From Desertimonas flava (GTDB lineage: Bacteria > Actinomycetota > Acidimicrobiia > Acidimicrobiales > Ilumatobacteraceae), in NCBI RefSeq assembly GCF_003426815.1, contig NZ_QKYK01000002.1, positions 248,001 to 312,000 on the forward strand: 64,000 nucleotides of DNA, written 5' to 3'. A model generated the notes under the pieces. The model was not told the DNA's origin. It was given only the letters and a program-made list of their open reading frames with translations, and did not search any database. Below are positions 30,051 to 59,794 of the stretch, piece by piece (position 1 is the stretch's first letter; each line of letters opens with the position of its first letter). Position numbers and translations under genes: made by a program.

Positions 30051-30493
30051 CGGCGGAGAGTGCCGGGAGCGTCGACCCGGCGAGCGAGCGGGAGGCGGTC
30101 GCCGCGGTGGTGACCGGCTACCTTGCTGCCTTCGCCACGGGCGACCCCGACCGCATCGCCTCGTTCGTGAGCGAGGACTTCATCAACGAGCACAGTTCGG
30201 CGCTCGGTTCCAGCCTCGTCGGCCGCGACAACTACCGCCAACGCCTGCCGACCTTCCTGGCCCGCTTCATCGGGCTGCGGTACGACATCGAGGACCTCGT
30301 CATCGAGGGGGAGCGCGCCGTCGCCGCCTACCGGATGACGTTCACCTACCGGGATGACGACGGGCGGGAGTGGCCGGTGTCATTGCCGGGCGTGTTCCGG
30401 TTCACCACCTCGGGCGGCAGGATCACATCCCGAGTGGACTACTGGGACGGCATCAACTTCCAGAATCAGACGACCGACCGGAGCGAGTCGTGA
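30047..30493 (+). CDS. SnoaL-like (NTF2-fold) protein
   Basis: A 148-aa cone-shaped NTF2-fold protein. It shows 'AVVTGYLAAFATGDPDRIAS', 'EHSSALGSSLVGRDNYRQRL' and 'GRITSRVDYWDGINFQNQ'. The fold serves as cyclase, isomerase or hydrolase in many pathways. The reaction cannot be assigned. It overlaps both neighbours (ATGA before, GTGA after), so it is made with the VOC protein and the amidohydrolase. Confidence 0.85.
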   Translation: MTAESAGSVDPASEREAVAAVVTGYLAAFATGDPDRIASFVSEDFINEHSSALGSSLVGRDNYRQRLPTFLARFIGLRYDIEDLVIEGERAVAAYRMTFTYRDDDGREWPVSLPGVFRFTTSGGRITSRVDYWDGINFQNQTTDRSES

Positions 30494-32149: not shown

Positions 32150-33786
<1,637 letters not shown>

Positions 33787-33790
<4 letters not shown>

Positions 33791-34932: not shown

Positions 34933-35837
34933 TGGACGCCGTCACCACCATCCTCGGCAGTGCCGTCCGCCAGACGGCGCCGCTCGCCTTCGCCACCTGT
35001 GGTGAGTACGCGGCAGAACGTTCGGGCACCCTCAACATCTCGATCGAGGCGATGATGCTCGGCGGCGCCTTCTTCGGCGTCCTCGGCAGCTCGGTCACGG
35101 GCAGCGTCGCCGGCGGCCTCGTGCTCGGATCGCTGGTCGGCTTCCTCGTCGCCTTCATCCATGCCCAGCTGAGCCACCGGCTGGCGGCCAACACATTCGT
35201 CGTCGGTCTCTCACTGAACGCCTTGCTGCTCGGCCTCACGAGCTACCTGCTCGAGACGACCGACCTCGATCCGGAACAGGCCGGCGTCGTGACGATCCCG
35301 CTGCTGTCGGAGATCCCGTGGATCGGCGAGCCGCTGTTCAAGAACCGCTGGCCGATCTATCTCCTCCTCGTCGCCATCCCTCTCACCAAGTGGCTGATCG
35401 ACCGCACCCGCTGGGGCCTGGAGGTGCGCTCGGCCGGCGAGGACCCGCAGGCCGCCGACGTCACCGGCATCGACGTCAACAAGCGCCGCCGCCAGAGCCT
35501 CTACTACTGCGGCGTGCTCTCCGGGATGGGTGGCGCCTATCTGTCGGTGGGCGAGGTCGGTCTGTTCAACAACAACATGACCGCCGGGGCTGGGTTCCTG
35601 GTGAACGCCGCCGTCATCTTCGGCGCCTGGCGCCTCGGCGGCGCCCTCATGGGCTGCGTCCTCTTCGGAACGGCCTCGTCGATCCAGTTGGCACTGCCGG
35701 CGCTCGGTCATCGCGTCACGCCACAACTGCTCATCGTCCTGCCGTACATCCTGGCGCTCGCCGCCATGGTCATCTTCGCCAGCCGCGGCCGCAAGCCGGC
35801 CGCGCTCGCCAGACCGTTCGTTCGAGGCTTGGCCTGA
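34932..35837 (+). CDS. BMP-type ABC importer permease 2
   Basis: A 301-aa permease with about eight hydrophobic segments. 'AERSGTLNISIEAMMLGGAF' is the diagnostic loop of the YufQ-type partner, and 'TRWGLEVRSAGEDPQAADVT' is its later cytoplasmic loop. It completes the importer channel with permease 1. ATG 34932 lies in a TGATG overlap. Confidence 0.93.
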   Translation: MDAVTTILGSAVRQTAPLAFATCGEYAAERSGTLNISIEAMMLGGAFFGVLGSSVTGSVAGGLVLGSLVGFLVAFIHAQLSHRLAANTFVVGLSLNALLLGLTSYLLETTDLDPEQAGVVTIPLLSEIPWIGEPLFKNRWPIYLLLVAIPLTKWLIDRTRWGLEVRSAGEDPQAADVTGIDVNKRRRQSLYYCGVLSGMGGAYLSVGEVGLFNNNMTAGAGFLVNAAVIFGAWRLGGALMGCVLFGTASSIQLALPALGHRVTPQLLIVLPYILALAAMVIFASRGRKPAALARPFVRGLA

Positions 35838-35952
35838 CCGCCAGACCCCGCACCCCAGAGCGGACCACTTCCTCGCCCGTGGGGGCCGGAACCGTACCCG
35901 AACACCAACTCCCGCGGCCGTGTCGGCCGGGGAACGCAAGGAGAAGACACCA

Positions 35953-37104
35953 ATGATTCGATCACGACGAGTAGCAGGCGTCTCGATCGCCGCGCTCATG
36001 GGCGTCGCGACCGTGGCCACCCAGTCGATCGTTGCGTCTGCGGCGAGCGACGACACGGCGGCTGGCACGGCGGCCGAGGAGAGCGAGGGCACCGCCGCCG
36101 CCGAGGAGACGGGCGAGACCCGCCCGGTTGTCGACGAGCGTCAGCCCGACGTCAACGGTGACGGCACGGTCGTCATCGGTGTCATCAGCCCCGGGGACAC
36201 CAACGACGGCGGCTATTACGAGGCGTTCATCACCGCCGCCGAGGCCTACACCGAGGCGAACGGCTGGGAGCTGACGGTCGTCGACCGCGTCAACGCGGCC
36301 GACGGCGCCAACCAGGCCCGCAACCTCTGCCGCCAGGGCGCCGACATGGTCGCCATCGCCGCCACCGAGAACCGCGACGCGGTGCCGGTGGCCGAGGAGG
36401 ACGTGTGCGCCAACTCGGTGTTCACCCTCTTCGGCGACTTCACCGAGCAGTACTCCGACAAGGTCGCCCAGGTGACCGGCGAGAGTGATGCCACGGAGTA
36501 CCTCATCGGCGTCGCCGTCGGCCAGGTGCTCCTCGAGCAGGGCAGCACGACGGCCGGCTGGGTCGGCGGTCCCGAGCTCGACTTCTCGGTGCGTGCGGTG
36601 CAGTTCTACACCGAGGGCGTGCTGTCGCAGGTGCCCGACGCCGAGGTGCTCGTCACCTACACCGGCTCGTTCGACGACGGTGGCAAGGCTCGCGAGGCCG
36701 TCGTGTCGCAGACCGGCCAGGGTGCGACCGTCGTCTACACGTACCTCGGCGGGGCGACCGACGCCGCGGCCTCGGCCGCACTCGACGCCGGCGCCCTCGC
36801 CGTGTCGCCGGGCACAGACCGCTGTGACGACGAGGACGGCCGCTTCGGCGTGTCCGGTCTCTTCGCCCCCGGCCTGTACTTCGAGAACCTCCTGAACGAC
36901 TTCTCGCAGGGTCGTGTCGCTGTCGGCACCATCATCCAGTACAAGGTCGGTGTCGATCCGGTGCCGGGTGCCAAGGTCTGCGACACCGTGGAGACCGCCG
37001 CCGAGATCCAGGCCATCGTCGATGAGGTCGCCGCTGGGATCGCCGACGGCAGCATCGCCGTCGGCGACGAGGAGAGCACCCTGCCGACGACCGGCGAGGG
37101 CTGA
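35953..37104 (+). CDS. BMP-family substrate-binding protein
   Basis: A 383-aa receptor of the basic-membrane-protein family. The signal peptide (residues 1-31) ends in ASAAS and lacks a lipobox Cys. An acidic Thr/Glu/Ala linker of about 35 residues leads to 'VVIGVISPGDTNDGGYYEAF', then 'NQARNLCRQGADMVAIAATE'. It ends with LPTTGEG, the letters of a sortase box but with no membrane segment after it. AAGGAG precedes ATG 35953. Ligands in the family are purine nucleosides, allantoin-like compounds or other small polar molecules. Confidence 0.9.
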   Translation: MIRSRRVAGVSIAALMGVATVATQSIVASAASDDTAAGTAAEESEGTAAAEETGETRPVVDERQPDVNGDGTVVIGVISPGDTNDGGYYEAFITAAEAYTEANGWELTVVDRVNAADGANQARNLCRQGADMVAIAATENRDAVPVAEEDVCANSVFTLFGDFTEQYSDKVAQVTGESDATEYLIGVAVGQVLLEQGSTTAGWVGGPELDFSVRAVQFYTEGVLSQVPDAEVLVTYTGSFDDGGKAREAVVSQTGQGATVVYTYLGGATDAAASAALDAGALAVSPGTDRCDDEDGRFGVSGLFAPGLYFENLLNDFSQGRVAVGTIIQYKVGVDPVPGAKVCDTVETAAEIQAIVDEVAAGIADGSIAVGDEESTLPTTGEG

Positions 37105-41081: not shown

Positions 41082-42173
41082 ATGACGTCCGACGCCCCCT
41101 CGACCCTGCCCACGCTGGAGCCGATCAGCGGTCCGTCCGCCTGGCGCGGCGACGAGCTGTCCCAGACCACCGAGTGGATCTACCTGCTGTCCGATGCCGA
41201 ACGCGAGGACTTCGAAGCGGTCGGGCGCAAGTTCGTCGCCGACGATCCCGACCTGCGCACCGTGACCGCCGATGCCTACCCGCTCGGGGCCGGCCAGGCG
41301 GTCATCGACGAGTGTGCGATGCAGATGGACCGGGGCCGCGGCTTCGTCCTCGTCCGGGGACTGCGCACCGAGGAGTACGGCGACACGCTCGCCGGCGCCA
41401 TCTTCTTCGTGATGGGCCTCCACCTCGGGGTGCCGATGGAGCAGAACCAGCTGGGCAACGTGCTCGACCACGTCATCGCCACCTCCAACAAGACCATGAA
41501 CGACCCGGGCGCACTGCCCTCGCGTGTGCGTGACCGGCTCATCTTCCACTCCGACAGCTCCGACGTCGTGGCCCTGATGTGCCTGCGCGGCTCGAAGTCG
41601 GGCGGGGCGAGCAGCCTGGCGAGCGGCACCACGATCTACAACGAGATCCTCCGCCGTCGCCCCGACCTCGCCCCGCTGCTGTTCGAGGACTGGTACTGGG
41701 ATTGGCGGGGTCAGGATCCCGACGCCAAGGCCGACTACTACGTGTCGCCGATCTGCAGCTACGTCGACGGCGTGTTCAGCACGTACGCGGGCAGCACGAT
41801 GATCTTGTCGGCGCAGGCCTACGACGGTGTGCCGAAGCTGACCGACGACCAGATCGAACTCCTCCGCCTCTACGACGAGATCACCGAGGAGCCGGGTCTG
41901 GCGATCGACATGGACTTCCAGCCCGGCGACGTGCAGTGGCTGCTCAACTACGCCGCACTCCACTCACGCACCTCCTACGAGGACTGGCCCGAGCCCGAGC
42001 GTCGTCGTCATCTCCTCCGTCTCTGGCTCAAGCGCGACGTCGGCCGACCGCTCGTCGAGAACTTCGGCAAGAACGTCGTCGCCGCCCGTTCGGACAGCTC
42101 CAAGCTCGTCGCCGGAGGTGCCTTCCGGATCGCCGAGGCCGTCGTCCCCAATGAGGACTGGGGCGCCTACTGA
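41082..42173 (+). CDS. TauD/TfdA-like Fe(II)/2-oxoglutarate oxygenase
   Basis: A 363-aa double-stranded beta-helix oxygenase. The iron ligands are His and Asp in FHSDSSD and the distal His in ALHSRTSYED; a 2-oxoglutarate-binding Arg is likely in 'RRRHLLRLWLKRD'. It is longer than TauD and has an insert near residues 200-230. The substrate is unknown. The -10 hexamer TATCGT ends 6 bases before the ATG, so the message is probably leaderless. It shares a regulatory region with the ALDH gene. Confidence 0.87.
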   Translation: MTSDAPSTLPTLEPISGPSAWRGDELSQTTEWIYLLSDAEREDFEAVGRKFVADDPDLRTVTADAYPLGAGQAVIDECAMQMDRGRGFVLVRGLRTEEYGDTLAGAIFFVMGLHLGVPMEQNQLGNVLDHVIATSNKTMNDPGALPSRVRDRLIFHSDSSDVVALMCLRGSKSGGASSLASGTTIYNEILRRRPDLAPLLFEDWYWDWRGQDPDAKADYYVSPICSYVDGVFSTYAGSTMILSAQAYDGVPKLTDDQIELLRLYDEITEEPGLAIDMDFQPGDVQWLLNYAALHSRTSYEDWPEPERRRHLLRLWLKRDVGRPLVENFGKNVVAARSDSSKLVAGGAFRIAEAVVPNEDWGAY

Positions 42174-42193
42174 CGCCGAGCGGCTCTGCTCGA

Positions 42194-42260
42194 CCGAGTG
42201 CCGGCGCCCTGCGGGGGCACCGGCACTCGGGAGCGGTTCGACACTCGGGCGGTGTCGAAC
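42194..42260. terminator. Two stacked hairpins between converging genes
   Basis: CCGAGTGCCGG/CCGGCACTCGG (42194-42230, 11-bp arms) is followed by GTTCGACAC/GTGTCGAAC (42236-42260, 9-bp arms). A 29-nt part (42224-42252) resembles 61528-61556, also between converging genes. Confidence 0.7.
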
Positions 42261-42265
42261 GTCCG

Positions 42266-42940
42266 TCAGGCCTCCGTCGCCCCCGCTGAGGCGGCCACGA
42301 AGTCGCGGTAGGGGACACGGGGCAGCTGGAACATCGACTCCGGGGTCGCCCGGTTGAACCACGGGAAGCCCATGCGGCCGACGGGGCGCAGGGCCGCCTG
42401 GTCGACGCGATAGTCGGGGGTGCAGACCGACTCGTCCATCACGAGGCAGACGACCTCGGCGATGACGAGGTGGACGCCGGAGTGCAACACCTTGGGGTCT
42501 CCCAGGTCGACGACCTGGTGGATGCGGCATTCCATGTGGACGGGGGACTCGGCGATCGACGGCGCCGACACCACCTGCGACGGGATCGCCGTCCAGCCGA
42601 TGTGGTCGACTTCGCTGACGTCGCCGGGGAACTCCATCGCCGCCGTCTCGATGTGCTGACCCATCGGGTCCGAGGTGACGTTGATGACGAACTCGCCGGT
42701 GCGGGTGGCGTTCTCGTAGGTGTGCTTGGGCAGACCGTCGGCCTCACGGAGCGCACCCATCGTCACGCCGACGAGCATCGGTTCACCCGTGATCGCCATG
42801 AAGTACGAGTAGGGGGCAACGTTGGTGACGCCGTCGCTGTTGGCCGTGGAGATCATCGCGATCGGGCGGGGGGCGATGACCTGGGCGAGCATTCCCTGGC
42901 GCTTCGTCGGTGTGTGCTCGGCGGGGTCGAAGATGATCAT
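42266..42940 (-). CDS. Flavin reductase-like (DIM6/NTAB) protein
   Basis: A 224-aa FMN-binding split-barrel protein. It begins 'MIIFDPAEHTPTKRQGMLAQ', then 'VIAPRPIAMISTANSDGVTN' and 'APYSYFMAITGEPMLVGVTM', the flavin-binding core of the family. Members supply reduced flavin to monooxygenases or act alone. ATG 42940 has a perfect AAGGAGG 7 bases upstream. It is the last gene after the NitT/TauT-type importer, though the 96-bp gap may hold its own promoter. Confidence 0.9.
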   Translation of the reverse strand: MIIFDPAEHTPTKRQGMLAQVIAPRPIAMISTANSDGVTNVAPYSYFMAITGEPMLVGVTMGALREADGLPKHTYENATRTGEFVINVTSDPMGQHIETAAMEFPGDVSEVDHIGWTAIPSQVVSAPSIAESPVHMECRIHQVVDLGDPKVLHSGVHLVIAEVVCLVMDESVCTPDYRVDQAALRPVGRMGFPWFNRATPESMFQLPRVPYRDFVAASAGATEA

Positions 42941-43038
42941 GGGATCCTCCTTGGGGTTCTGTTGATGGGGCGCGCCGATCAAAGGCGCGAGCGGCGCGCC
43001 GTCGAACGGTCACTGATGGGGCTCGGGGTGGACCGGGG

Positions 43039-43872
43039 CTACTTGCGGTTGCGGGAGTCGAAGTGCCAGCGAAGGAGCCGGCGCTCGGCAGCGCCGAACA
43101 CGACGTTGACGAGCAGGCCGAGGACGCCGACGAGGAAGATCCCCGCCCAGACGTCGAGGAACCGGAACGCCTGCTGGCTGGACAGGATGAACCGCCCGAC
43201 GCCCTCCGTCGCGGCGAACAGCTCCGACGACACCATGACGATGAGGGCGATGCCGAGGCTGACCCGCAAGCCGGCCACGATCTGCGGGCTGGCGCCGGGG
43301 ACGAGGACGTAGCGGAACGAGTCGAAGCGGCTGAGCCGCATCGAGCGGGCGCTGAGCAGGGCGACGCGATCGACCGCCCTGACGCCTGCGACCGTGCTGA
43401 TCAGGACCGTCCAGACGCAGCCGAGGGCGATCACGAAGATGTTCATCGCGTCGCCGAGCCCGAACAGCGTGATGGCGAGGGGGAGCAGCATCACCGACGG
43501 CGTGGCCATGCCGAACCGCACGACGGGGTTGAGCAGCCATTCGGCGCGCCGCGACACGCCCAGAGCGATACCGAGCGGCAGGGCGACGGCGACGGCGATG
43601 GTCCAGCCCCGCAGCATGCGGGAGATGCTCGGCCCGACGTGCTCGAAGAACTCGTCGGACAGGAACAGGTGCGTGGCGGGTCCGCCGAACCACAGCTCGC
43701 GGCAGCGGGTGAGGATCGCCGACACCTCGGGGACGAACAGCGACGGGCTGTTGGTGGCGCGCAGCTCCCAGAGGAGCAGCAGGGTGACGAGCAGCCAGAC
43801 GCGCACGACCGTGCGGCGGGACAGGAGCGCAGCGCGACGAGCCGATCCGGAGATCGTGCCGGCGTCAGCCAT
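43039..43872 (-). CDS. NitT/TauT-type ABC importer permease 2
   Basis: A 277-aa permease with about six hydrophobic segments. It has 'MLRGWTIAVAVALPLGIALG' and the ATPase-contact loop 'RFDSFRYVLVPGASPQIVAG', both typical of SsuC/TauC/ThiX-like permeases. I use ATG 43872; GTG 43875 would add one residue. It overlaps the first permease gene by eight bases. Confidence 0.92.
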   Translation of the reverse strand: MADAGTISGSARRAALLSRRTVVRVWLLVTLLLLWELRATNSPSLFVPEVSAILTRCRELWFGGPATHLFLSDEFFEHVGPSISRMLRGWTIAVAVALPLGIALGVSRRAEWLLNPVVRFGMATPSVMLLPLAITLFGLGDAMNIFVIALGCVWTVLISTVAGVRAVDRVALLSARSMRLSRFDSFRYVLVPGASPQIVAGLRVSLGIALIVMVSSELFAATEGVGRFILSSQQAFRFLDVWAGIFLVGVLGLLVNVVFGAAERRLLRWHFDSRNRK

Positions 43873-44656
43873 CACGGAACGCTCCGTGCCACCTGAGGAG
43901 GCGCTTCTCGATCGCCGTCAGCACGGCGGCGAGCGTGACGCCGATGGCGCCGATGACGACGATCGCCGCGTAGACGGCCTCGGTGTCGTTGGCTTCGCCG
44001 AAGCGCAGCATCTGGGCGCCCACGCCGTCGCCGGCGCCGAGCAGTTCGGCGCTGAGCACGACCACGAAGGCGATCGCCGCGGCGAGCTTGATGCCCGTGG
44101 CGATGGACGGTGATGCGCTCGGCAGGATCACCCGCCAGAACGTCTGCAGCTTCGTCCAACGCAACGAGCGGGCGACTTGGAGCGCGGTGGGGTCGACGCC
44201 GCGCACCCCGTACACCGTGTTGACGAGGATCAGCCAGACGATGGCGAAGGAGACGACGAAGAGCTTCGTCTGGAACCCCAGTCCGAAGATCGAGATCGCC
44301 GCCGGGATGAGCGCGGCGGGCGGCACCGACCGGGCGATGTCCACGATCATGCCCGCCGAGCGGTACCAGAAGTCGAACCGCCCGATGACGAGCCCGAGCG
44401 GGACGGCGACGACGATGGCGAGGAGCAGGGCCCACGCCCATGCCTGCATCGTCACGCCGAGCTCGGCGCGGAACCGGTCGTTGCCGAGGAGGCGACCGAC
44501 GCTGCGGGCCGTCGCGGCCGGGCCCGGGAGTGACGACCGGGCGACGAGATCGAACGTGACGGCCAGCTGCCAGACGCCGACGACCGCCGCCAGGCCGGCG
44601 CCGCCCCAGAGGAGCGGCGCCGAACTGGTCACGGCGGCAAGGCGCCTCGTCGTCAC
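43865..44656 (-). CDS. NitT/TauT-type ABC importer permease 1
   Basis: A 263-aa permease. It contains 'GVTMQAWAWALLLAIVVAVP', 'IARSVPPAALIPAAISIFGL' and the contact loop 'KLQTFWRVILPSASPSIATG'. It is a paralogue of the next permease, giving a heterodimeric channel. GTG 44656 overlaps the stop of the binding-protein gene (GTGA). Confidence 0.92.
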   Translation of the reverse strand: MTTRRLAAVTSSAPLLWGGAGLAAVVGVWQLAVTFDLVARSSLPGPAATARSVGRLLGNDRFRAELGVTMQAWAWALLLAIVVAVPLGLVIGRFDFWYRSAGMIVDIARSVPPAALIPAAISIFGLGFQTKLFVVSFAIVWLILVNTVYGVRGVDPTALQVARSLRWTKLQTFWRVILPSASPSIATGIKLAAAIAFVVVLSAELLGAGDGVGAQMLRFGEANDTEAVYAAIVVIGAIGVTLAAVLTAIEKRLLRWHGAFRDG

Positions 44657-45642
44657 GGCATCGCCAGCGGGGCGAGCAGCTCGTCGACGTCGACCGGTTC
44701 GGGCAGGAAGCCACCGGCGACCATCGTGTCGACCATGCCGGCGAGGACGTCGTGGTCGACGGTGGTGATCTGCGGCTCGTTGGCGATCGAGCGGAGCAGT
44801 TCGACCGTCGTGCCGCCGTGCTCGGCCATCAACTCGAACACGGCGTCCTCGTTGGCGGGGTCGGTGATCTGGGCCAGCGATTCGTCGAGGGCGGCGCGCC
44901 AGCGCACGAGCACCTCTTCGTGCGCCGCGAGGTAGTCGGCCGTGGTGATGTACACGGCGTAGGCGACGTCACCGGCGACGACGCCCATCGGGTCGAGGAG
45001 GAGCACCCCGTCGCCGCTGCTGACGATGGCCTGCGCGCGGGTCGCGTTGAGTCCCACGGCGTCGACGCGGCCGCTGAGGAAGGCCGTGTCGAGCTGGCCG
45101 TTCGGCAGGGCGATGAAGTCGACCTCGTTGGGGTCGCACCCGTCGTCGGCGATCCAGGCCGCCATGTAGATGTGGCCGATGCCGCCGACCTCGTCGATGG
45201 CGACCTTGCGACCCACGAGGTCGCACGGCGACTCGATGCCCGAGTCGGGCGCGACGACGACGCCGCGGCCGTTGGGCTGGGGCGGGTTGACGTTGCCGTA
45301 CGCCGCTCCGACGATGCGGATCGGGAAGCCCTGCTGGAACGCCTTGATGGCGTCGGTCCCACCGACGAAACCGATGTCGGCCGAGCCCGACATCACGGCG
45401 GCCACGCCCGCCGCGCCGCCTCCGGTCTGCACCGGTTCGAAGTCGATGCCGTGCTCCTCGAAGATGTCGTGCTCCTGGGCCCACACCCAGTTGATCTCGT
45501 TGGCGAAGCCGATGTAGGTCTGGCGAACCTCGTCGAGCTCGTCCGCGGACGCGGCGACGGGGATACTGGTGGAGGCGGCGACACCACCGAGGGCGACGGT
45601 GGCGGCTGCGCCGAGTGCGAGTCGGCGAAGGGAACGGTTCAC
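44653..45642 (-). CDS. NitT/TauT-type ABC importer binding protein
   Basis: A 329-aa receptor of the NMT1/THI5-like class. The signal peptide (1-33) ends ASA. The mature part has 'RQTYIGFANEINWVWAQEHD', 'MSGSADIGFVGGTDAIKAFQ' and 'DEVGGIGHIYMAAWIADDG'. Ligands in this class include sulfonates, nitrate, hydroxymethylpyrimidine, riboflavin and aromatic acids; the sequence does not decide. Start is GTG 45642. Confidence 0.9.
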   Translation of the reverse strand: MNRSLRRLALGAAATVALGGVAASTSIPVAASADELDEVRQTYIGFANEINWVWAQEHDIFEEHGIDFEPVQTGGGAAGVAAVMSGSADIGFVGGTDAIKAFQQGFPIRIVGAAYGNVNPPQPNGRGVVVAPDSGIESPCDLVGRKVAIDEVGGIGHIYMAAWIADDGCDPNEVDFIALPNGQLDTAFLSGRVDAVGLNATRAQAIVSSGDGVLLLDPMGVVAGDVAYAVYITTADYLAAHEEVLVRWRAALDESLAQITDPANEDAVFELMAEHGGTTVELLRSIANEPQITTVDHDVLAGMVDTMVAGGFLPEPVDVDELLAPLAMP

Positions 45643-45715
45643 GGGGTGGGTCTCCTCATGGTCGGGGTGATGGTCGGGGTGCGATTGGGGTGGGCAGGAA
45701 CAGGCGGGCGTGGCG

Positions 45716-46540
45716 TCACGCGCTGCGCGAGGCCATGAGGCGCGTCCGCAATGAGTCGGAGCTGCGCGCCGGCTCGTTGCGGCGGTGCATCACGAGCTCG
45801 AAGATCTCCGAGCGCAGGTGGGCGAACTCGGGCAGCTCCTTGGTCGCGATCTGGTCGCGAGGGCGGGGTAGGTCGACGGTGACCTCACTCACCACGCGGC
45901 CGGGGCGCTCACCGAGCACGACGACACGGTCGGCCAGGTACACCGCCTCGTCGATGTCGTGGGTGACGAACAGGATCGTGAAGCCGAGGTCGGTCCACAG
46001 TTCGAGGACGAGGTCTTCGAGGTCGGCGCGGGTCTGGGCGTCGACGGCGGCGAACGGTTCGTCCATCAGCATGACGGCGGGACCGACGGCGAGCGCTCGG
46101 GCGATCGCCACGCGCTGCTGCATGCCGCCCGACAGCTGCCACGGGTACAGCTTCCCGGTGGCCCCGAGCCCGACCGCCTCGAGCGTGTCCGACACCAGGC
46201 TCTTGACCTCGGCGCGCGAGTGTCCACGGCCCTTGAGGGCGAGAGCGACATTGCGCTCGACGCTCAGCCAGGGAAAGAGCGACCGGCTGTAGTCCTGGAA
46301 CACGAGCGAGAGGTCGGCCGGTGGTTCGGTGACGGCGGCATCGCCGAGGCGCACCAGGCCGGTCGTCGGGGCCAGCAGACCAGACAGGATGCCGAGCAGC
46401 GTCGACTTGCCGCATCCGGAGGGGCCGACGATCGAGACGAACGTCCCGGACGGCACGGAGAACGAGATCTCCGCCAGGGCCGGCCGGACCTCGCCGGACA
46501 CGACGTATTCTTTGGCGACTCGATCGACGACGAACTGCAC
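45716..46540 (-). CDS. NitT/TauT-type ABC importer ATPase
   Basis: A 274-aa ATPase. Walker A is GPSGCGKST, the Q-loop is in 'LSLVFQDYSRSLFPWLSVER', the signature is LSGGMQQRVA, Walker B is VMLMDEP and the switch His is in FVTHDIDEAV. It heads the importer operon. GTG 46540 has GAGG upstream. The gene is 205 bp downstream of the PucR-like gene on the same strand, and I see no clear promoter in that gap. Confidence 0.94.
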   Translation of the reverse strand: MQFVVDRVAKEYVVSGEVRPALAEISFSVPSGTFVSIVGPSGCGKSTLLGILSGLLAPTTGLVRLGDAAVTEPPADLSLVFQDYSRSLFPWLSVERNVALALKGRGHSRAEVKSLVSDTLEAVGLGATGKLYPWQLSGGMQQRVAIARALAVGPAVMLMDEPFAAVDAQTRADLEDLVLELWTDLGFTILFVTHDIDEAVYLADRVVVLGERPGRVVSEVTVDLPRPRDQIATKELPEFAHLRSEIFELVMHRRNEPARSSDSLRTRLMASRSA

Positions 46541-49276: not shown

Positions 49277-51499
49277 ATGCCGAACATCACGTCGAACCTC
49301 GACCGTCCCGATTTCGATCACCACTCGGCGGAGGCCAACGCCGATCCGGTGGCGTACTACGAGCGCTTCCGGTCGGAGTGCCCGGTCGGTCGTACTGCGG
49401 CCCACGGCGGCTTCGCCTATACGACGCGGTACGACGACGTCGTGCGCATCGCCCGCGACGACGCCACGTTCTCGTGCACCCGCGCCTTGGCCGGCGACCC
49501 CGACGCCGTGGCGATCGTCATCCCGGGCGGCCTCGGCCTCGAGCAGTACCCGCTCGAGCTCGACCCACCCCGTTCGCGGGAGTATCGGGAGCTGATCGAT
49601 CCCCTCCTCACGCAGTCGGCGATCGACAAGCTGCGGCCGATGATCGCCAAGCACGCCGCCCGCGTCGTGGACGCCTTCGCCGACAAGGGCCGCTGCGACT
49701 TCGTCGACGACCTCACCAACCCGTTGCCGACGGCGGTGACGCTCGACTGGCTGGGGTTCCCGGAGGAGGACTGGGCCCGCCTCGCCAAGCCCGTGCACGA
49801 CATCTTCGCCTGCCCGCCCGACAGCCCTCGGGCCATCGAGGGGGCCGCCGGACTCGCCTACATGGACCAGCGGATCCGCGAGCTCGTCGCCGCGCGACGT
49901 GAGGAGCCGCTCGACGACGCCGTGTCGTACCTTGCCAACGCCCGGCGCGCCGGCGGCGAGCTGTGGGGTGTCGACGAGCTCGTGTCGGTGATCGGCCTGC
50001 TCATCGCCGGCGGCGTCGACACCACGACGTCGCTCACCGGCTCGACACTGGTCCACCTCGCTCGCCATCCCGAGCAGCGGCGCGAGCTCGCCGAGCGGCC
50101 CGAGCTGATCGCGTTGGCCACCGACGAGTTCCTCCGGGCGTTCGCCCCGTCGCAGTCGATGGCCCGCACGGCGACCACCGATGTGACGGTCGGCGGTCTC
50201 GAACTGGCCGCGGGCGAGCGGGTGCTCATCCCCTGGGTGGCGGCCAACCACGATCCCGAGGTGTTCGAGAACCCCACCGAGGTCCGGCTCGACCGAGACG
50301 CCTCACGTCACGTCAGCTTCGGCATCGGCAGCCACCGCTGCGCCGGCGCCCACCTGGCGAGGGCGATGTTCCGCGAGATGATGACCCAGGTGCTCACGCG
50401 CCTGCCCGACTACGAGATCGACGAGGACGGTCTCGTGGCCTACCCGACGAGCGGCAACCAAGCCGGCTGGGACTCCATCCCGGCCACGTTCACGCCCGAG
50501 ATCGAGCGCGTGCAAACCACCGCGGTGATCCGTCGGCAGCACGTCGCCATCGACCGCTCGCTGATGATCACCGAGGCCCGTGTCGAGGCGGACAACGTCG
50601 TGTCGATACGCCTCGCCGACCCCGCGGGCGGCGACCTGCCGGTGGGCGATCCCGGCGCCCACCTCGAGTTCCGCCTCCCGTCGGGCCGTCTCCGGCAGTA
50701 CTCGCTGCTCGGCGGCGACGGCACCACCGGCTACCGCGTCGCCGTGCTGCGTGAGGAGAGCGGCCGGGGCGGTTCGGTCGAGGTCCACGACCTCGCACGC
50801 GCCGGCGGGTCACTCCACGTGGCCACCCTGCGCAACAACTTCCCCCTCGTCGAACGTGGGTCCTACCTCTTCCTCGCCGGCGGCATCGGCGTCACCCCGC
50901 TGCTGGCGATGACCCGTCACCTCGCCGCCACCCGCCGCGACGCGGTGGTCACCATGGTCTACGGCGGCCGCAGCCGTTCGTCGATGGCGTTCGTCCCGGC
51001 CCTCGAGGAGGTGCTCGGCGACCGCCTCACGGTGGTCACCGAGGAGGAGCACGGCTATCCCGACTTCAACGCCATCATCGGCGCCCAGCTGCTCGGGACG
51101 GCCATCTACTGCTGCGGCCCGCCGGCGATGATCGCCGCCGTCGAGCGAGCCTGCGAGGCCCTCGGCCGGCTCGACGATCTGCACGTCGAACGCTTCATGG
51201 CGGGAGACATCGACGAGTCGATCGGCTTCGGCGAGCCGTTCGACGTCACCCTCGCCCGCAGTGGCGTCACGGTGCACGTCGAGGGCCAGCAACGCCTCAT
51301 CGACGCGGTGCGGGGCACGGTGCCGGGCCTCAGCTACGACTGCGAACGGGGTCACTGCGGCGCCTGCGAGACCACGATCCTGGCCGGAACCCCCGACCAT
51401 CGTGACTCCGTCCTGAGCGCCGAGGAGCGGGCCGCCGGCCGGACGATGATGATCTGCGTCGGTCGGGCCAAGACGCCGTCGATCACCCTCGACCTGTGA
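49277..51499 (+). CDS. Self-sufficient cytochrome P450 - reductase fusion (CYP116B-like)
   Basis: A 740-aa fusion. The P450 domain (about 1-395) has the I-helix A244-G-G-V-D-T-T, ExxR at Glu284-Arg287, and heme Cys355 in FGIGSHRCAGAHL. The C-terminal part (about 410-740) is a phthalate-dioxygenase-reductase type unit: flavin motif RQYSLLGG, NAD motif GGIGVTPLLAM, and [2Fe-2S] cysteines in CERGHCGAC plus a later ICVG. Such class VII enzymes oxidise small organics with NAD(P)H and need no partner. AGGAG precedes ATG 49277. Confidence 0.95.
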   Translation: MPNITSNLDRPDFDHHSAEANADPVAYYERFRSECPVGRTAAHGGFAYTTRYDDVVRIARDDATFSCTRALAGDPDAVAIVIPGGLGLEQYPLELDPPRSREYRELIDPLLTQSAIDKLRPMIAKHAARVVDAFADKGRCDFVDDLTNPLPTAVTLDWLGFPEEDWARLAKPVHDIFACPPDSPRAIEGAAGLAYMDQRIRELVAARREEPLDDAVSYLANARRAGGELWGVDELVSVIGLLIAGGVDTTTSLTGSTLVHLARHPEQRRELAERPELIALATDEFLRAFAPSQSMARTATTDVTVGGLELAAGERVLIPWVAANHDPEVFENPTEVRLDRDASRHVSFGIGSHRCAGAHLARAMFREMMTQVLTRLPDYEIDEDGLVAYPTSGNQAGWDSIPATFTPEIERVQTTAVIRRQHVAIDRSLMITEARVEADNVVSIRLADPAGGDLPVGDPGAHLEFRLPSGRLRQYSLLGGDGTTGYRVAVLREESGRGGSVEVHDLARAGGSLHVATLRNNFPLVERGSYLFLAGGIGVTPLLAMTRHLAATRRDAVVTMVYGGRSRSSMAFVPALEEVLGDRLTVVTEEEHGYPDFNAIIGAQLLGTAIYCCGPPAMIAAVERACEALGRLDDLHVERFMAGDIDESIGFGEPFDVTLARSGVTVHVEGQQRLIDAVRGTVPGLSYDCERGHCGACETTILAGTPDHRDSVLSAEERAAGRTMMICVGRAKTPSITLDL

Positions 51500-51573: not shown

Positions 51574-51595
51574 GCCTCCCGGTCGGGCGGTGCTG

Positions 51596-52765
51596 ATGTC
51601 CGCCGACCGGTTGCGCGACGAGCTCCAGGAGTTGGCCTTCGCCGGCTCGTCGTGGCCCGACCTGCTGCGCCACATCCATCACGCCACGGGGCGTCCGGTC
51701 CGCCTCGTCGCCGTCGACGGTGCCCTGCTCGCCCAGCACGGCGTCGCCGGGGAGGCCTCGGGCGATCACGAGGGCCGCTCGTTCGACCGCATCCGCCCGC
51801 GCGTGCTCGACGCCGCGGCGATCGCGGCCGTGGACGTCGCCGCCGGGGCGATCGACGTGCCCGCCTCGGACGGCGCGATGCGTGGACTCGCGGTGAGGGC
51901 GGGGGAGCGGCGCGTCGGCGTCCTCCTGGTCGGCGACGCCGAGGGTCAGGGCGGCGTGGGCGCCGACGACGTGCTCGCCGCCGCCGTCACGGCGCTCGCC
52001 ATCGTCGCCGTCCGCCGCGACGCCGAGGCTGGAGCGGTCGCCGAGAGCGCCGCCTGGTTCGTCGACGAACTGCGTTTCGGCTGGCGCCGCACCGACGACG
52101 ACCTGCTCACGATGGGCCGGCGCTTCGGGGTGAATCTCGCCCAGCCCCACGCCGCGGTCGTCGCCACCTATGAGGGCGCCGACGAACGCATGTGGCGGAC
52201 CGCCGTCTCGTGGTTGGACACGCCCGTGCGCGTCGACGGCGGCCGGGCCTGGACGATCGCCGGCGGCGACGTCGGGCACCGCGTGGCGGTGATGCAGGCA
52301 CGCCTCCAGGAGTTCGTGAGCAGCGGCGAGGTGCGGGTGGCCGCCGGCCCCGTCGGGGTGGGAGCGGAGTCGCTGCGATCGGGGTTCCGGCTCGCCGGGA
52401 TCGTCCTCGGTCTGGGCATCCGGCGTCGCGGACCGGCTGCCAGCACGTACGCCGACGCCGGCACCGCCGGCCTGCTTTCCCAGGTGCCGCCGGAGGCCCT
52501 GCGGGTGTTCGTGGCACAGCATCTCGGGGCCCTCGAGGGTCGCCGTGATCTGCTCGACACGCTCGATGCGTGGTACGCCACCGGTGGCAGCCGCAGCCGT
52601 GTCGCCGAGTCGGTGCACCTCCACCGCAACTCCGTCGGACACCGAATGCACAGGATCCGCGACCTCCTCGGCGTCGACCCGAACGACCCGGTGGTGGCCG
52701 AACGGCTGCGCACGGCCCTCGCCGCGGCCGACGTCCTCGCCGTCCTCGACGACGCGGAGTCCTGA
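51596..52765 (+). CDS. PucR-like helix-turn-helix regulator 3
   Basis: A 389-aa paralogue of the two regulators at 46.7-49.1 kb. The C-terminal HTH reads 'RSRVAESVHLHRNSVGHRMH', and the start 'MSADRLRDELQELAFAGSSW' resembles regulator 2 ('WPHVLAVLSRAADRPTRLIG' against 'WPDLLRHIHHATGRPVRLVA' nearby). It stands alone between the P450 and the HD-domain unit and may control either. ATG 51596 is used; GTG 51590 would add two residues. Confidence 0.85.
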   Translation: MSADRLRDELQELAFAGSSWPDLLRHIHHATGRPVRLVAVDGALLAQHGVAGEASGDHEGRSFDRIRPRVLDAAAIAAVDVAAGAIDVPASDGAMRGLAVRAGERRVGVLLVGDAEGQGGVGADDVLAAAVTALAIVAVRRDAEAGAVAESAAWFVDELRFGWRRTDDDLLTMGRRFGVNLAQPHAAVVATYEGADERMWRTAVSWLDTPVRVDGGRAWTIAGGDVGHRVAVMQARLQEFVSSGEVRVAAGPVGVGAESLRSGFRLAGIVLGLGIRRRGPAASTYADAGTAGLLSQVPPEALRVFVAQHLGALEGRRDLLDTLDAWYATGGSRSRVAESVHLHRNSVGHRMHRIRDLLGVDPNDPVVAERLRTALAAADVLAVLDDAES

Positions 52766-52849: not shown

Positions 52850-53515
52850 ATGAGCAACGTCTTCCCTGTGCCGCCGCCGACGCCGACGTTCGACGGGTAC
52901 ATGGCGCCGCGCATGTCGGAGTTCAGCCCGGCGTTCAACGAGTTCCTCAACGAGCAGCTGATCATCGACCGGGAGCAGATGGCCGACCGCGTGCTCGGCC
53001 TGCTGCGTCTCTCCGACTTCGTGGTCCAGGGCTTCGGCCTGACCCAGTTGGACCACGGGCTGCAGACGGCCGCCTACGCCGAGGCCGCCGGCATGGACGT
53101 CGACATCGTGGTCGCCGCCCTCTGCCACGACATGGGCAAGGTCATCTCCACGCCCAACCACGGCGCCATCGCCGCCGAGATGATCAAGTTGTACGTGCAC
53201 CGGGACGCCTATTGGGCGGTGCTCGTCCATCAGGACTTCGAGGGCATCCACTACCTCGGCGAGATGGGGATCGACCCGATGCTGCGCCGTCGGTACTCCG
53301 ACGATCCGGCCTACGAGCTCGCCGAGCAGTTCGCCGACGAGTGGGACGAGCGGGCGTTCGACCCCAACGGCTCCCCGCCGCCACTCGAGCACTTCGAGCC
53401 GATGGTGCGCGAGGTCTTCGGCCGCAAGCCCCGCCTCCTCGACCACTGGGAGGAGAGCCGGGCCGCCAACGCCGCAGCCGCAGGCGCCGACGCTCCCACC
53501 GCCGTTCCGGCGTGA
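52850..53515 (+). CDS. HD-domain protein, PhnZ/MIOX-like oxygenase candidate
   Basis: A 221-aa HD-fold protein. Metal residues visible are His69 (QLDHG), His93-Asp94 (LCHDMGK), His104 (PNHG), and His117 and His127. The layout, with an extra helix before the HD core and no nucleotide motif, is closer to PhnZ and inositol oxygenase (diiron C-C/C-P cleaving enzymes) than to phosphohydrolases, but a hydrolase cannot be excluded. The stop overlaps the GTG of the enolase-superfamily gene, so the two enzymes are probably consecutive in a pathway. Confidence 0.75.
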   Translation: MSNVFPVPPPTPTFDGYMAPRMSEFSPAFNEFLNEQLIIDREQMADRVLGLLRLSDFVVQGFGLTQLDHGLQTAAYAEAAGMDVDIVVAALCHDMGKVISTPNHGAIAAEMIKLYVHRDAYWAVLVHQDFEGIHYLGEMGIDPMLRRRYSDDPAYELAEQFADEWDERAFDPNGSPPPLEHFEPMVREVFGRKPRLLDHWEESRAANAAAAGADAPTAVPA

Positions 53516-54675
53516 AGATCACCAGCGTCACCGTCACGCCGGCGACGTACGACTTCGGCTGGGCGCCGATGTCGTTCTGCTTCGTCGCCATCGAGTCCGA
53601 CGAGGGTCTGGTCGGGTGGGGCGAGGCGTGCGACAGCTTCGGCTGCACGTACGCCGGCGTCGTCGGCGCGGTCGTCGAACAGGCCTTCGCGCCGCTCCTC
53701 GTCGGCCAGGAACTGACGGCGGTCGATGCCGTCGCCGATCGCATGCGCCTGTTCACGCGGCGCCGCCTCGGCGATGCGTGGATCGCCGCCCAGGCCCGCA
53801 GTGCCGTCGAGAACGCGCTGTGGGACCTCGTCGGCAAGTCCGCCGGTCGCTCGGTGAGCGACCTGCTCGGACGGGCGAGGGACTCGGTGGAGGTCTACGC
53901 GTCCGGCACCTTCCTCGAGGAGATGGACGCCGCCGGCCACGTCGCGTCGTTCCGCCCACTCGTCGAGCGTGGCGTGCAGAAGGCCAAGTCGCGGGTGGGG
54001 CCGAACTGGCAACGAGATCTCGACACGCTGGCCGCCGTCATGGCCGAGCTCCCGGGAGTGGAGTTCATGGTCGACGGCAGTGAGACGTTCACCGTGCCGA
54101 CGGCCCTGCGGATCGCCGACCGCCTCGCCGCCATGGGCATCGCCTGGTTCGAGGAGCCGATCCCGCAGAACGAGCACGCTGCGCTTGAGATCCTCGGCTC
54201 GCGGTCGCCCGTGCCGATCGCCTACGGCGAGCACCTGTACGGCCGCGAGGAGGCGCTCGACTGCCTGCGTGGCGGCCACGCCACCGTGCTGCAGCCCGAC
54301 GCGTCCACCAGCGGCGGTCTGAGCGAGGCCCGGCGCATGGCCGAGGTGGCTGCGCCGTTCGGCGCTCGGGTCGTGCCCCACAACTGCGCGGGTCCAGTCG
54401 CCCTGGCGGCCAACCTCCACCTGGCGGCGTCCGTGCCGGCGATCCGCCTGATCGAGTACCCGATCCACCTGGTGCCGGTGTGGGCGGCGTTCGGCACGAC
54501 CGCCCCGTTCGCGCCGGAGCACATCGTCGACGGCCACCTGCGCATCCCCGATCGTCCCGGCCTCGGCGTCGAGCCCGACGTCGCCGGCCTCGCCGCCCAC
54601 CCCTACGAGCTCCCCGGCGATCGCGTCGCCGGCACCTCAGTCGGCCTCCCTGACCGCTTCGTCGGAGACGTCTAG
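53512..54675 (+). CDS. Mandelate racemase/muconate lactonizing-family enzyme
   Basis: A 387-aa enolase-superfamily enzyme. The KxK motif is in VQKAKSRVGP, the metal ligands are Asp in FMVDGSET, Glu in WFEEPIP and Glu in YGEHLYG, and the His-Asp dyad is in LQPDAST and VVPHNCAG. This full set fits acid-sugar dehydratases or racemases. Start is GTG 53512. Pairing with an HD-type oxygenase suggests an oxidised sugar or cyclitol acid, which is inference. Confidence 0.92.
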   Translation: MKITSVTVTPATYDFGWAPMSFCFVAIESDEGLVGWGEACDSFGCTYAGVVGAVVEQAFAPLLVGQELTAVDAVADRMRLFTRRRLGDAWIAAQARSAVENALWDLVGKSAGRSVSDLLGRARDSVEVYASGTFLEEMDAAGHVASFRPLVERGVQKAKSRVGPNWQRDLDTLAAVMAELPGVEFMVDGSETFTVPTALRIADRLAAMGIAWFEEPIPQNEHAALEILGSRSPVPIAYGEHLYGREEALDCLRGGHATVLQPDASTSGGLSEARRMAEVAAPFGARVVPHNCAGPVALAANLHLAASVPAIRLIEYPIHLVPVWAAFGTTAPFAPEHIVDGHLRIPDRPGLGVEPDVAGLAAHPYELPGDRVAGTSVGLPDRFVGDV

Positions 54676-54979: not shown

Positions 54980-56059
54980 CTAGGCGTTGGCGTGTTGGGC
55001 GATGATGGCTTTGGAGAAGGCGGCGTGGCAGCCGACGGTGCCGTCGACGACCTGGGTCACGCCGAGGTCGGCGGCGACCGAGGCGATGGAGTAGGCGTCG
55101 TCGGCCGACAGGCCGAGGACGCGGCGGATGAAGATGATGAGCTCCTCGGCGGCCTGGCGCATGGCTGCGTCGAGCGTGTCGCCGAACCCGTGCACGTACC
55201 ACGCGTCGGCCGTCTCCAGCAGCGGCGTCCGCAGCTCGAGGTCGGGAGCGAGCGACAGTGTCAGGTCGACCGTGGCCGATGCCTCGATCGCCGTGCCGCA
55301 GATCTCGCCGTCGCCCTGGGCGAAGTGGGGGTCACCGACGTAGAAGCCGGCCCCAGGGCGGAAGACCGGCAGGTAGAGCGTGGCACCGGGCCCGAATCGC
55401 CAGTTGTCGACGTTGCCGCCGAACGGTCCGGGCGGGATGCTCGACAGGCGGCCCGATTCGGCAGGGGCGACGCCCATCACGCCGAGGTGCGGTCGGACCG
55501 GCACGCGCACGCGACCGTCGACCGGCTCGCGCACGACGTCGGCAGGAGCGGACACGAAGCCGGGGGCGTCGTACAGCGGGCGGGCGGTGAAGTCGAAGGC
55601 GAACTCGGGATGAGCCCAGCGGCCGAAGCCGGGCTCCGAGCCCGAGGCGGCGTCGGCGTCGAGGGCGTACACCGTGACCCGCTCCTTCTTGTACGTGTCG
55701 TACAGGACCCCCCAGTGGGCGGCGACGTTGGCGCCGAAGGGGTGTCGGGGCGTCATCGCACCGATCGACACCGCCAGGGCCATGCCCGGTTCGGCACCGA
55801 CCACCTCGATCGGTCCCGACAGGATGTGCACACCGGGACCCCGCTCGTCGGGCGGGATCGCCGCCCAGAGCGCCTCGAGCTCGGCGTCGAGGGTGAGGTC
55901 GGGAGCATCCCCGGCGTGATGGCTGACGGCATCGATGCGGACGCGGTCGCCGTCGGCGACGGTGAGGCGGGCCGGCTCGTCGGGGTCGATGTAGCCCCAC
56001 ACGCAGTGGTCGGCCGAGGCGGTCAGGTGATGGAGGCGGTCCGTGGATGCGAGCGTCAC
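54980..56059 (-). CDS. Acetamidase/formamidase (FmdA/AmdA) family protein
   Basis: A 359-aa enzyme of the FmdA fold. It has 'TASADHCVWGYIDPDEPARL', 'IPPGPFGGNVDNWRFGPG' and 'VGDPHFAQGDGEICGTAIE', which are the family's diagnostic segments. It would hydrolyse formamide or a short amide to ammonia, fitting a nitrogen-containing pathway. Start is GTG 56059 with GGAGG 12 bases upstream. The shared operator is at 56134-56148, so it probably belongs to the regulon although it follows the SDR gene on the same strand. Confidence 0.92.
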   Translation of the reverse strand: MTLASTDRLHHLTASADHCVWGYIDPDEPARLTVADGDRVRIDAVSHHAGDAPDLTLDAELEALWAAIPPDERGPGVHILSGPIEVVGAEPGMALAVSIGAMTPRHPFGANVAAHWGVLYDTYKKERVTVYALDADAASGSEPGFGRWAHPEFAFDFTARPLYDAPGFVSAPADVVREPVDGRVRVPVRPHLGVMGVAPAESGRLSSIPPGPFGGNVDNWRFGPGATLYLPVFRPGAGFYVGDPHFAQGDGEICGTAIEASATVDLTLSLAPDLELRTPLLETADAWYVHGFGDTLDAAMRQAAEELIIFIRRVLGLSADDAYSIASVAADLGVTQVVDGTVGCHAAFSKAIIAQHANA

Positions 56060-57156: not shown

Positions 57157-59352
57157 GTGACCACCGACGAGGTACACGGTCGCGACCACGTAGCGGTCGC
57201 AGGTCTTCAGGTCGACCGGACGTTGTTCGAGTTCGCCGAGCAGGAGGCCCTGGTCGGCACGGGAGTCTCGCCGGAGAGCCTGTGGGACGGGCTCGCCGCC
57301 CTGGTGGCAGAGTTCGGGCCCCGCAACGCCGAGCTCCTCGCCGAACGCAGTCGTCTCCAGGCCCAGCTCGACGCCTGGCACGATGCCAACCCGGGACCGA
57401 TCGCCGACCCGGCGTCGTATCGCGCCTTCCTCGAAGAGATCGGCTACCTCCTCCCCGACGGCGAGCCGTTCACGATCGACACCGCCGACGTCGACCCCGA
57501 GATCGCCGACATCGCCGGCCCGCAGCTCGTCGTGCCGGTCACCAACGCCCGATACGCGCTGAACGCGGTCAACGCCCGCTGGGGATCGCTGTACGACGCC
57601 TACTACGGCACCGACGCGCTCGGTTCGCCGCCGCCGGCCGGCCCGTACGACCCGGCGCGTGGTGCCGAGGTGATCCGTGCCGCGACCAGCTTCCTCGACG
57701 ACGTCGTTCCTCTCGCCGGGGTCTCGCACGGCGCGGTCACCGCGTACCGGGTCGTCGACGGTTCCCTCGTGGCCGACGGCGACGGCGGCCCCGTGCCGCT
57801 CGCCGAGCCCCCGTTGTTCACCGGCCATCTCGGTGCCGCAGGGTCTCCCGACTCGGTGTTCCTCCGCCACCACGGGCTGCTCATCGAGCTCGTCGTCGAC
57901 CGCTCGCACCACGTCGGCGCCGATCATCCGGCAGGGGTGGCGGACGTCCGGCTCGAGTCGGCGTTGACGGCCATCATCGACTGTGAGGACTCCGTCGCCA
58001 CGGTGGATGGCGAGGACAAGGCAGCGGCGTACCGCAACTGGTTGGGCCTCATGCGTGGCGACCTGACGGCCAGCTTCACCAAGGGGAGCACCGTCGTCGA
58101 CCGTTCGATCGAGCCCGACCGCACGATCGTCGGCGCCGACGGCTCGCCGGTCTCCGTCCGCAGCCGGGCGCTGCTGCTCGTACGCAACGTCGGACATCTC
58201 ATGAGCACGCAGGCCGTGCTCGACGCCGACGGCGACGAGATCCCCGAAGGGTTGCTCGACGCCCTCTTCACCACGCTCTGCGCCCTCCACGACCTGCGCC
58301 GCGACGGGGGACCGCGCAACTCGCCGGCCGGATCGGTCTACGTCGTCAAGCCGAAGATGCACGGTCCGGCAGAGGTGGCTTTCACCAACGACGTGTTCAC
58401 CCGTGTCGAGACGATCCTCGGTCTGCCCGCCGACACCGTGAAGCTCGGCCTGATGGACGAAGAGCGGCGCACGACGGTGAACCTCCCCGAGTGCATCCGC
58501 GCCGCCCGGTCCCGTGTCGCGTTCATCAACACCGGCTTCCTCGACCGCACCGGCGACGAGATCCACACGTCGATGCACGCCGGCCCGGTCGTGCCCAAGG
58601 CGGCGATGACGCAGCAACGCTGGATCGCCGCCTACGAGGACTGGAACGTGGACGTCGGGCTGCGCTGCGGCCTGCCCGGCCGGGCCCAGATCGGCAAGGG
58701 CATGTGGGCCGCGCCCGATCTGATGCACGACATGCTGGCCACCAAGGGCGGCCATCCCGCCGCCGGGGCCAACTGCGCGTGGGTGCCGTCGCCAACCGCG
58801 GCCACCCTCCACGCCACGCACTACCACCGCGTCGACGTGCTCGCCCGACACGCTGAGCTGCGGGCCGGCGGTCCGCGGGCGACGGTCGACGACATCCTCG
58901 ACGTCCCGCTGCTGCCTGCCGACGCCGTCACCGCGCTCACCGCCGAGCAGATCGCCGACGAGGTCGCCAACAACGCCCAGGGCATCTTGGGCTACGTGGT
59001 GCGTTGGATCGACCAGGGGGTCGGCTGCTCGAAGGTTCCCGACATCCACGACGTCGGGCTGATGGAGGATCGCGCCACGTGCCGCATCTCGTCACAGCAC
59101 ATCGCCAACTGGCTGCGCCACGGCGTGGTCACCCCTCAGCAGGTCGACGAGACGTTCCGGCGCATGGCCGAGGTGGTCGACGGCCAGAACGCCGGCGACG
59201 ACGCCTACACCCCGATGGCTCCGGCCTTCGACGGCCCGGCCTTCCTCGCCGCCCGCCACCTCGTGTTCGACGGGGCCGAGCAGCCGAGCGGCTACACCGA
59301 ACCCATCCTCCACCACTGGCGCCTCGTCAAGAAAGCGAACGACCATGCCTGA
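57157..59352 (+). CDS. glcB: Malate synthase G
   Basis: A 731-aa single-chain malate synthase, the normal G-form length. It has '[20 protein letters not shown]', '[16 protein letters not shown]' and '[20 protein letters not shown]', with the catalytic Asp near the C-terminus in the '[12 protein letters not shown]' part. It condenses glyoxylate with acetyl-CoA to malate in the cytoplasm, so the pathway or a linked route yields glyoxylate. GTG 57157 has AGAGGAG 7 bases upstream. It overlaps the GlcG gene and carries the regulon palindrome. Confidence 0.97.
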
Positions 59353-59794
59353 CCACGCCGCATCTATCTCCCTCACCATCGAGGCCGCTCGCACGATCAT
59401 CGGCGGCGCACTCGCCGCCGCCCGTGCCGCCAACCTCAAGCCGCTCGCCGTCGTCGTCCTCGATGCCGGCGGCAGCCCCGTCGCCTTCGAGCGCGAGGAC
59501 GGGGCGTCTCCGGGCCGCTTCGCCATCGCCAACGGCAAGGCGGCCGGGGCGATCGCCTTCGGCGTGGGCTCGCGAGCGCTCGGCGACTGGGCGGCCGAGC
59601 GGCCCTCGTTCGTCGCCGCCGCCGGGCAGGCCCTCGGCGGCGCCCTGATCCCGGTTCCCGGCGGCGTGCTCGTGCGCGACGACGCCGGACGTGTGATCGG
59701 CGCCGTCGGTGTCACCGGCGACACGTCCGACCACGACGAGTCGTCCGCCATCGCCGGGATCGAAGCCGCCGGGCTCACCGCCGATCCCGGCTGA
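59345..59794 (+). CDS. glcG: GlcG/HbpS-family protein
   Basis: A 149-aa small protein of the GlcG/HbpS/DUF336 family. It starts '[20 protein letters not shown]', then '[20 protein letters not shown]' and '[20 protein letters not shown]'. Relatives accompany glycolate oxidase or bind heme and cobalamin-related cofactors. Here it overlaps malate synthase by eight bases, but no glycolate oxidase genes (glcDEF) are near. Confidence 0.9.

Follow-up and report, generated by a model that had tools for sequence, protein, structure and literature searches.

The HD oxygenases described in the accessible portion of PMC8177086 are MIOX, PhnZ, and TmpB, for all of which it gives the metal-ligand motif H...HD...H...H...D; the same set is reported there for dinuclear HD hydrolases, so the ligands alone are no proof of an oxygenase. 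PhnZ and TmpB, as presented in that portion, bear a YxxE loop, missing from MIOX, that acts as a gate to the iron and binds the amine of the substrate, and both act after Fe/2OG hydroxylases. The accessible portion of PMC10574752 counts four versions of the PhnY/PhnZ-type pathway, with close PhnZ variants. As far as these partly accessible sources go, described HD oxygenases besides MIOX cleave C–P bonds. A widespread clade that has this ligand set and conserved partners but no phosphonate loop would reveal further uses of the cofactor, and an HD gene coupled to an enolase gene is a defined pair for testing such uses.

The HD protein and its relatives

The locus compared here lies within a 64,000-nucleotide stretch of DNA (the window) from a genome assembled into 73 contigs totaling 6.2 Mb. 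All coordinates are positions in the window unless another locus is named. The HD gene and its immediate neighbors are as follows:

49277–51499, + strand: cytochrome P450 fused to NAD-binding and 2Fe-2S domains
51590–52765, + strand: PucR/CdaR-type regulator, upstream of the HD gene
52850–53515, + strand: HD-domain protein, putative diiron oxygenase (ATG start at 52850, 221 aa)
53512–54675, + strand: enolase superfamily enzyme, mandelate racemase-type (GTG start at 53512, 387 aa)
54980–56059, − strand: acetamidase/formamidase family protein, downstream of the enolase gene

Both the HD and the enolase reading frame were called by a homology-free gene caller, and the composition of the HD frame is coding-like (GC3 0.95). 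The sequence-only reading had described the pair as fused by overlap; the overlap stands, at four shared bases (GTGA), and the fusion was rejected, as these are two separate reading frames.

Of 296 genomes from the class, 126 contain relatives of the HD protein at E ≤ 0.001, and Actinomadura and Alphaproteobacteria also have relatives among the 80 loci listed from named genomes. Removal of four fragments shorter than 150 aa (L104_5, L118_0, L111_3, and L111_4) and of identical duplicates reduced 116 HD matches to 109 nonredundant sequences. The tree and residue counts used 108 rows, L065_11 being left out for its wrong N terminus, and the profile alignment used the 69 that remained of the 109 after thinning at 80% identity. 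Against Pfam, the window protein matched PF01966 (HD; 1.2e-06) as its sole hit at E ≤ 0.01, with no match to PF05153 (MIOX) at that threshold, and on this ground a MIOX ortholog was rejected. A MIOX family search gave no match in the host genome, but as it also gave none in any of the 14 control genomes, it is uninformative as to whether the host has a MIOX. The best curated NCBIfam models were the phosphonate HD oxygenases (TIGR03276, NF049941, and NF052439 were tested), all well under cut-off: 38.3 versus 214.6 bits for TIGR03276, 30.6 versus 300 bits for the TmpB model, and 23.4 versus 300 bits for the third. When the host genome was searched with TIGR03276, the HD gene and its paralog were the only matches (33.4 and 30.7 bits). 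A second HD protein of the wider family in the host genome (locus L032, 10500–11039; C12:330517–330972) is 38% identical and encoded ∼29 kb downstream, with no adjoining enolase gene.

A PDB search with the profile built from the 69 relatives ranked PhnZ (6.5e-14) and TmpB (2.7e-10) first, followed by dNTPase-like chains (0.062 and 0.068), an HD protein (0.13), and MIOX (0.26), the last being weak and not better than some hydrolases. The predicted structure of the HD protein (pLDDT 93.7, pTM 0.87) returned PhnZ or TmpB as all 10 chains matched by Foldseek at E ≤ 0.001. In VIA-align, the model was closest to PhnZ (Z 18.3, rmsd 3.2, 153 aligned) and TmpB (Z 17.6, rmsd 2.9, 154 aligned), with MIOX as the second-nearest fold group (Z 12.2, rmsd 3.3, 141 aligned; and Z 11.6) and the remaining entries listed at Z ≤ 9.0. 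Thus the proposed resemblance to PhnZ/MIOX diiron oxygenases is borne out by fold, where PhnZ/TmpB and then MIOX stand above any hydrolase, and by ligand set; by profile, it extends to PhnZ and TmpB and not to MIOX.

The sequence-only reading had credited the HD protein with several His/Asp ligands, and all six are in fact present (H69, H93, D94, H104, H127, and D166). They are invariant in 108 of 108 rows, window protein included, and align with the corresponding residues of four Phn-HD-like rows (L161–L164), D166 doing so in three of the four because L164 loses likeness toward its C terminus. The predicted site is accordingly not the mononuclear phosphohydrolase site that had been named as refuting an oxygenase, and a mononuclear phosphohydrolase was rejected on the six ligands and the oxygenase-like fold. 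The second ligand pair is followed by HDxGK, the Lys of which we take to match a Lys of MIOX. The HD protein shares with PhnZ the HD fold, the six-ligand motif, and the nearest profile and fold match but differs from it at ∼23% identity in the fold alignment; it groups with the HD oxygenases by fold and ligand set, yet is not a PhnZ/TmpB, and orthology to either was rejected on the model cut-offs and the loop.

An alternative with a small though real chance of being correct is that the HD protein is a dinuclear HD phosphohydrolase acting on a nucleotide or phosphodiester, the proximity of the enolase gene reflecting regulation or nucleotide salvage. The six-ligand motif is also that of dinuclear hydrolases (PMC8177086, accessible portion), and PF01966 is the one Pfam family matched. 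In 28 of 108 rows, genes of an ispH/aroA locus lie beside the HD gene (LytB and EPSP synthase, confirmed in one member each), an uninformative context, and much of the wider HD family is without oxidative context. The gene module described below includes a BMP-type importer, and the BMP-type importer family includes nucleoside importers. However, hydrolases rank well under PhnZ/TmpB in both the profile and the fold comparison, and the genes of some HD relatives directly follow a gene for an Fe/2OG hydroxylase, the type of enzyme that partners PhnZ and TmpB. Such a gene adjoins HD in 12 of the 109 wider relatives, neighbor-cluster labels having been checked by family scans of single members: a TauD/GBBH-type (TmpA-like) gene is directly upstream in seven (four scanned) and a PhyH-type gene in five (two scanned). 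The scanned neighbors in L123, L071, L114, and L122 gave TauD and/or a TmpA-model score below its cut-off; those in L142 and L124 are PhyH. The L123 hydroxylase, although under the TmpA model cut-off, has TmpA (6npb) as its best PDB match (6.2e-41), and the PhyH-type protein of L142 a monooxygenase entry (6zyk); L123, L127, and L128 are near-copies of one locus and account for three of the seven TmpA-like neighbors. Since PhnZ and TmpB act after such hydroxylases, these arrangements support oxygenase chemistry in the HD family. While the wider relatives thus resemble TmpB in adjoining TmpA-like hydroxylases, the window clade differs in having an enolase as partner: neither the window nor any of the eight other enolase-linked loci has an Fe/2OG hydroxylase gene beside HD, the nearest window genes of this kind being those at 59884 (a PhyH protein) and 41082 (a TauD-family protein).

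Two further contexts were observed in the wider family. In eight of eight Actinomadura loci, the HD gene is flanked by a gene for a TPP-dependent enzyme on one side and one for a zinc alcohol dehydrogenase on the other (L112, L113, L115–L117, and L119–L121; one member of each scanned). In locus L129 (7622–10564), from a MAG labeled gammaproteobacterial, a different MR_MLE_C-type enolase lies two genes upstream of an HD relative, possibly an independent HD–enolase association.

Pairing with an enolase superfamily enzyme

The partner enzyme is a mandelate racemase-type enolase by its domains (MR_MLE_C, 3e-53; MR_MLE_N, 9.8e-16) and its fold. Residues D188, E214, E240, the D263/H290 pair, and E315 are invariant in nine of nine orthologs; D188, E214, and E240 are presumably the acidic metal ligands and D263/H290 the His/Asp dyad. 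The active site, which the sequence-only reading had called a complete acid-sugar one, is better termed nearly complete, as the acidic, D263/H290, and E315 positions are all in place and the second-strand motif is K159-x-R161 in all nine orthologs, none of which has the Lys-x-Lys/His base motif. The nearest solved enolases by fold, at 28 to 32% identity and with the acidic and His/Asp positions aligned, are two Bordetella enolases, 3h12 (Z 48.9) and 3ozm (Z 48.6; its title names m-xylarate and L-lyxarate), and 4hpn, a proposed galactarolactone cycloisomerase (Z 46.5). The galactarolactone cycloisomerase 4ggb has KxK where the window enolase has KxR, a motif shared by 3bjs, whose title says no more than enolase superfamily member. 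The nine orthologs further share a cap motif, CDSxGC, and an invariant C-terminal GLPDRFVGD (residues 378–386), a tail modeled with low confidence (pLDDT <50 at 370–379 and 384–387). No NCBIfam equivalog cut-off for a named acid-sugar dehydratase was reached, the best listed being galactonate dehydratase at 146.3 versus 311; the nearest solved enolases suggest an acid-sugar substrate.

An enolase profile search of the 296 class genomes (E ≤ 1e-80), which has no bias toward HD neighborhoods apart from the rows in the profile itself, gave matches in nine, five at 690 to 733 bits and four at 272 to 278 bits. All five high scorers adjoin an HD match, while each of the four low scorers is on a contig other than that of the single HD match listed for its genome. 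The five high scorers were already in the profile, so what the search shows is that no further close ortholog without HD came up in the samples, and their genomes belong to one family and hence do not represent five independent events. A phylum sample (396 genomes, overlapping the class sample; E ≤ 1e-100) yielded four enolases, all among the same five. Four further loci (L072, L073, L074, and L076) were reached through HD and are not an unbiased test; with these, nine of nine enolase orthologs, in nine genomes, adjoin HD in three arrangements: HD then enolase (the window), enolase then HD (seven loci, with gaps of 21–82 bases), and divergent (L072). Among these nine genomes, the genes overlap in the window alone, and a branch of a quick tree separates the nine enolase-linked HD proteins from the remaining rows (SH-aLRT 90). 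The gene-neighborhood survey thus upholds the coupling proposed from the window alone: the link is real and conserved, and because the pairing survives changes of order and orientation, it is taken to be functional.

Window genes were also compared with the eight other enolase–HD loci, of which L072 (6.9 kb) and L076 are on contigs shorter than 7 kb. The following genes recur:

22659–23681, + strand: aldo/keto reductase (52–72%, five of eight other loci)
28421–29452, + strand: zinc-type alcohol dehydrogenase/quinone oxidoreductase (46–48%, three of eight)
29550–30050, + strand: VOC/glyoxalase-fold protein (six of eight, one at 32% only)
30047–30493, + strand: SnoaL-like protein (two of eight, L073 and L033)
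30490–31902, + strand: TRZ/ATZ-type amidohydrolase (best copy 54–64% in seven of eight, the eighth being L072)
32150–37104, + strand: ABC importer, with ATPase (32150–33790) and BMP (PnrA-like) binding protein (35998–37104)
33787–34932 and 34932–35837, + strand: ABC permeases, named from place and relatives

Relatives of the importer lie near the HD–enolase pair in L034–L036 and in L076, the last without a binding protein, at a contig start; counted singly, the BMP-type binding protein (27–32%) and the ABC ATPase and permeases each recur in four of the eight loci. The acetamidase, P450, and PucR genes recur in one of eight each: a 58% relative of the acetamidase/formamidase is two genes from HD in L073, which also encodes hydantoinase A and B, and in L072, a 62% relative of the P450 fusion (domain order P450, NAD-binding, 2Fe-2S, a self-sufficient arrangement) lies near the enolase gene and a 45% relative of the regulator (partial, at the contig end) adjoins HD. 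Ten amidohydrolases at 60% identity or above were found in the 296 genomes, the window's own included, and for at least 8 of the 10, a listed HD match lies within ∼23 kb. Sister HD proteins in L078 and L043 occur with Rieske-type oxygenases, VOC and SnoaL proteins, and the amidohydrolase (62 and 61%) and without an enolase, so the enolase is not obligatory. The module looks like one for degradation of an organic compound, possibly a nitrogen-containing one because a TRZ/ATZ amidohydrolase and Rieske oxygenases recur, with hydantoinase and acetamidase in single loci; the recurrent neighbors point to a nitrogen-containing compound as much as the enolases do to acid sugars.

It is improbable that the region is a loose catabolic island in which the HD protein and the enolase serve different pathways. 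The module genes are scattered over more than 30 kb of the window and the sister loci lack an enolase, as such an island would predict, but adjacency to HD in nine of nine enolase orthologs and three arrangements argues against it, four of the nine having been fetched through HD.

Substrate and proposed route

Among the substrates suggested in the sequence-only reading, a cyclitol or a sugar acid is a candidate and a phosphonate is unlikely because scores fall far under the model cut-offs and the YxxE loop before the first ligand His occurs in 0 of 108 HD-family rows. The residue at the position of its Glu is F (72 rows), Y (35), or M (1). The four Phn-HD-like rows all have YxxE, a motif also used to pick them and hence not independent. 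Two other positions differ: HDxGH of the Phn-HD-like rows is HDxGK (74) or HDxGD (34) in the 108 rows, which also have Q (97) or E (11) in place of the K of the Phn-HD-like stretch HVAAKRY. The H of HDxGH and this K are, we assume, phosphonate-binding in PhnZ. Among the matches listed for the scanned neighbor genes, no phosphonate-specific NCBIfam model was above its cut-off. That the HD protein is nevertheless a PhnZ/TmpB-type phosphonate oxygenase with an altered loop, as its closest characterized proteins might suggest, is very improbable given these scores and residues and the presence, in 4 of 14 genomes with this HD family, of a separate Phn-HD-like gene scoring far higher (166–207 bits), itself just under the cut-off of 214.6.

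The preferred reading, held with moderate confidence, is that the HD protein is a dinuclear (diiron) oxygenase of a separate PhnZ/TmpB/MIOX-type clade, with another substrate, acting in one catabolic route with the enolase. By analogy with characterized members, for which the accessible portion of PMC8177086 describes substrate on Fe1, O2 on Fe2, and hydrogen abstraction, a hydroxylated substrate would be bound on one iron (Fe1) and O2 activated on the other (Fe2). A hydrogen would then be abstracted from the hydroxyl-bearing carbon and the adjacent bond, presumably a C–C bond, cleaved without an external reductant to leave a carboxylate, a product deduced from those named for the characterized members. 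The enolase would in turn hold a carboxylate on Mg2+, abstract its alpha proton through the H290/D263 pair, possibly with R161 opposite, and dehydrate or isomerize it. An enzyme of the mandelate racemase type needs a carboxylate with an alpha proton, which makes passage from the HD product to the enolase the simplest order; the enolase might handle that product, a hydroxy acid, or its precursor. The BMP-type importer could feed such a route, in which the TRZ/ATZ amidohydrolase, VOC protein, and reductases may also act on an acid or nitrogen-containing substrate.

A literature search, mostly without subscription papers, brought up no account of an HD oxygenase coupled to an enolase, and the HD protein probably belongs to a previously undescribed branch of a known kind of HD oxygenase, in an undescribed pathway. 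More tentatively, and with somewhat less than an even chance, the branch as a whole would use neither phosphonate nor inositol, and its O2-dependent C–C (or C–N) cleavage would supply a dehydratase of the enolase type in an undescribed route that degrades an acid-sugar-like or nitrogen-containing compound, while the Fe/2OG hydroxylase-paired sister branches of Alphaproteobacteria and Actinomycetota would act on carboxylates rather than phosphonates.

Other genes of the window were observed in passing. Genes at 19433–22290 encode both subunits (alpha and beta) of a Rieske dioxygenase together with an extradiol-type dioxygenase, an aromatic-degradation set in the same region. The TauD-family protein (41082–42173) lies in a region (41082–46540) that also encodes a sulfonate/taurine-type ABC importer, with an SsuA-like binding protein (below cut-off), a permease, and an ATPase. 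At 57157–59794, an HbpS-like gene comes after that of malate synthase G and overlaps it by 8 bases, a pair that suggests glyoxylate use nearby.
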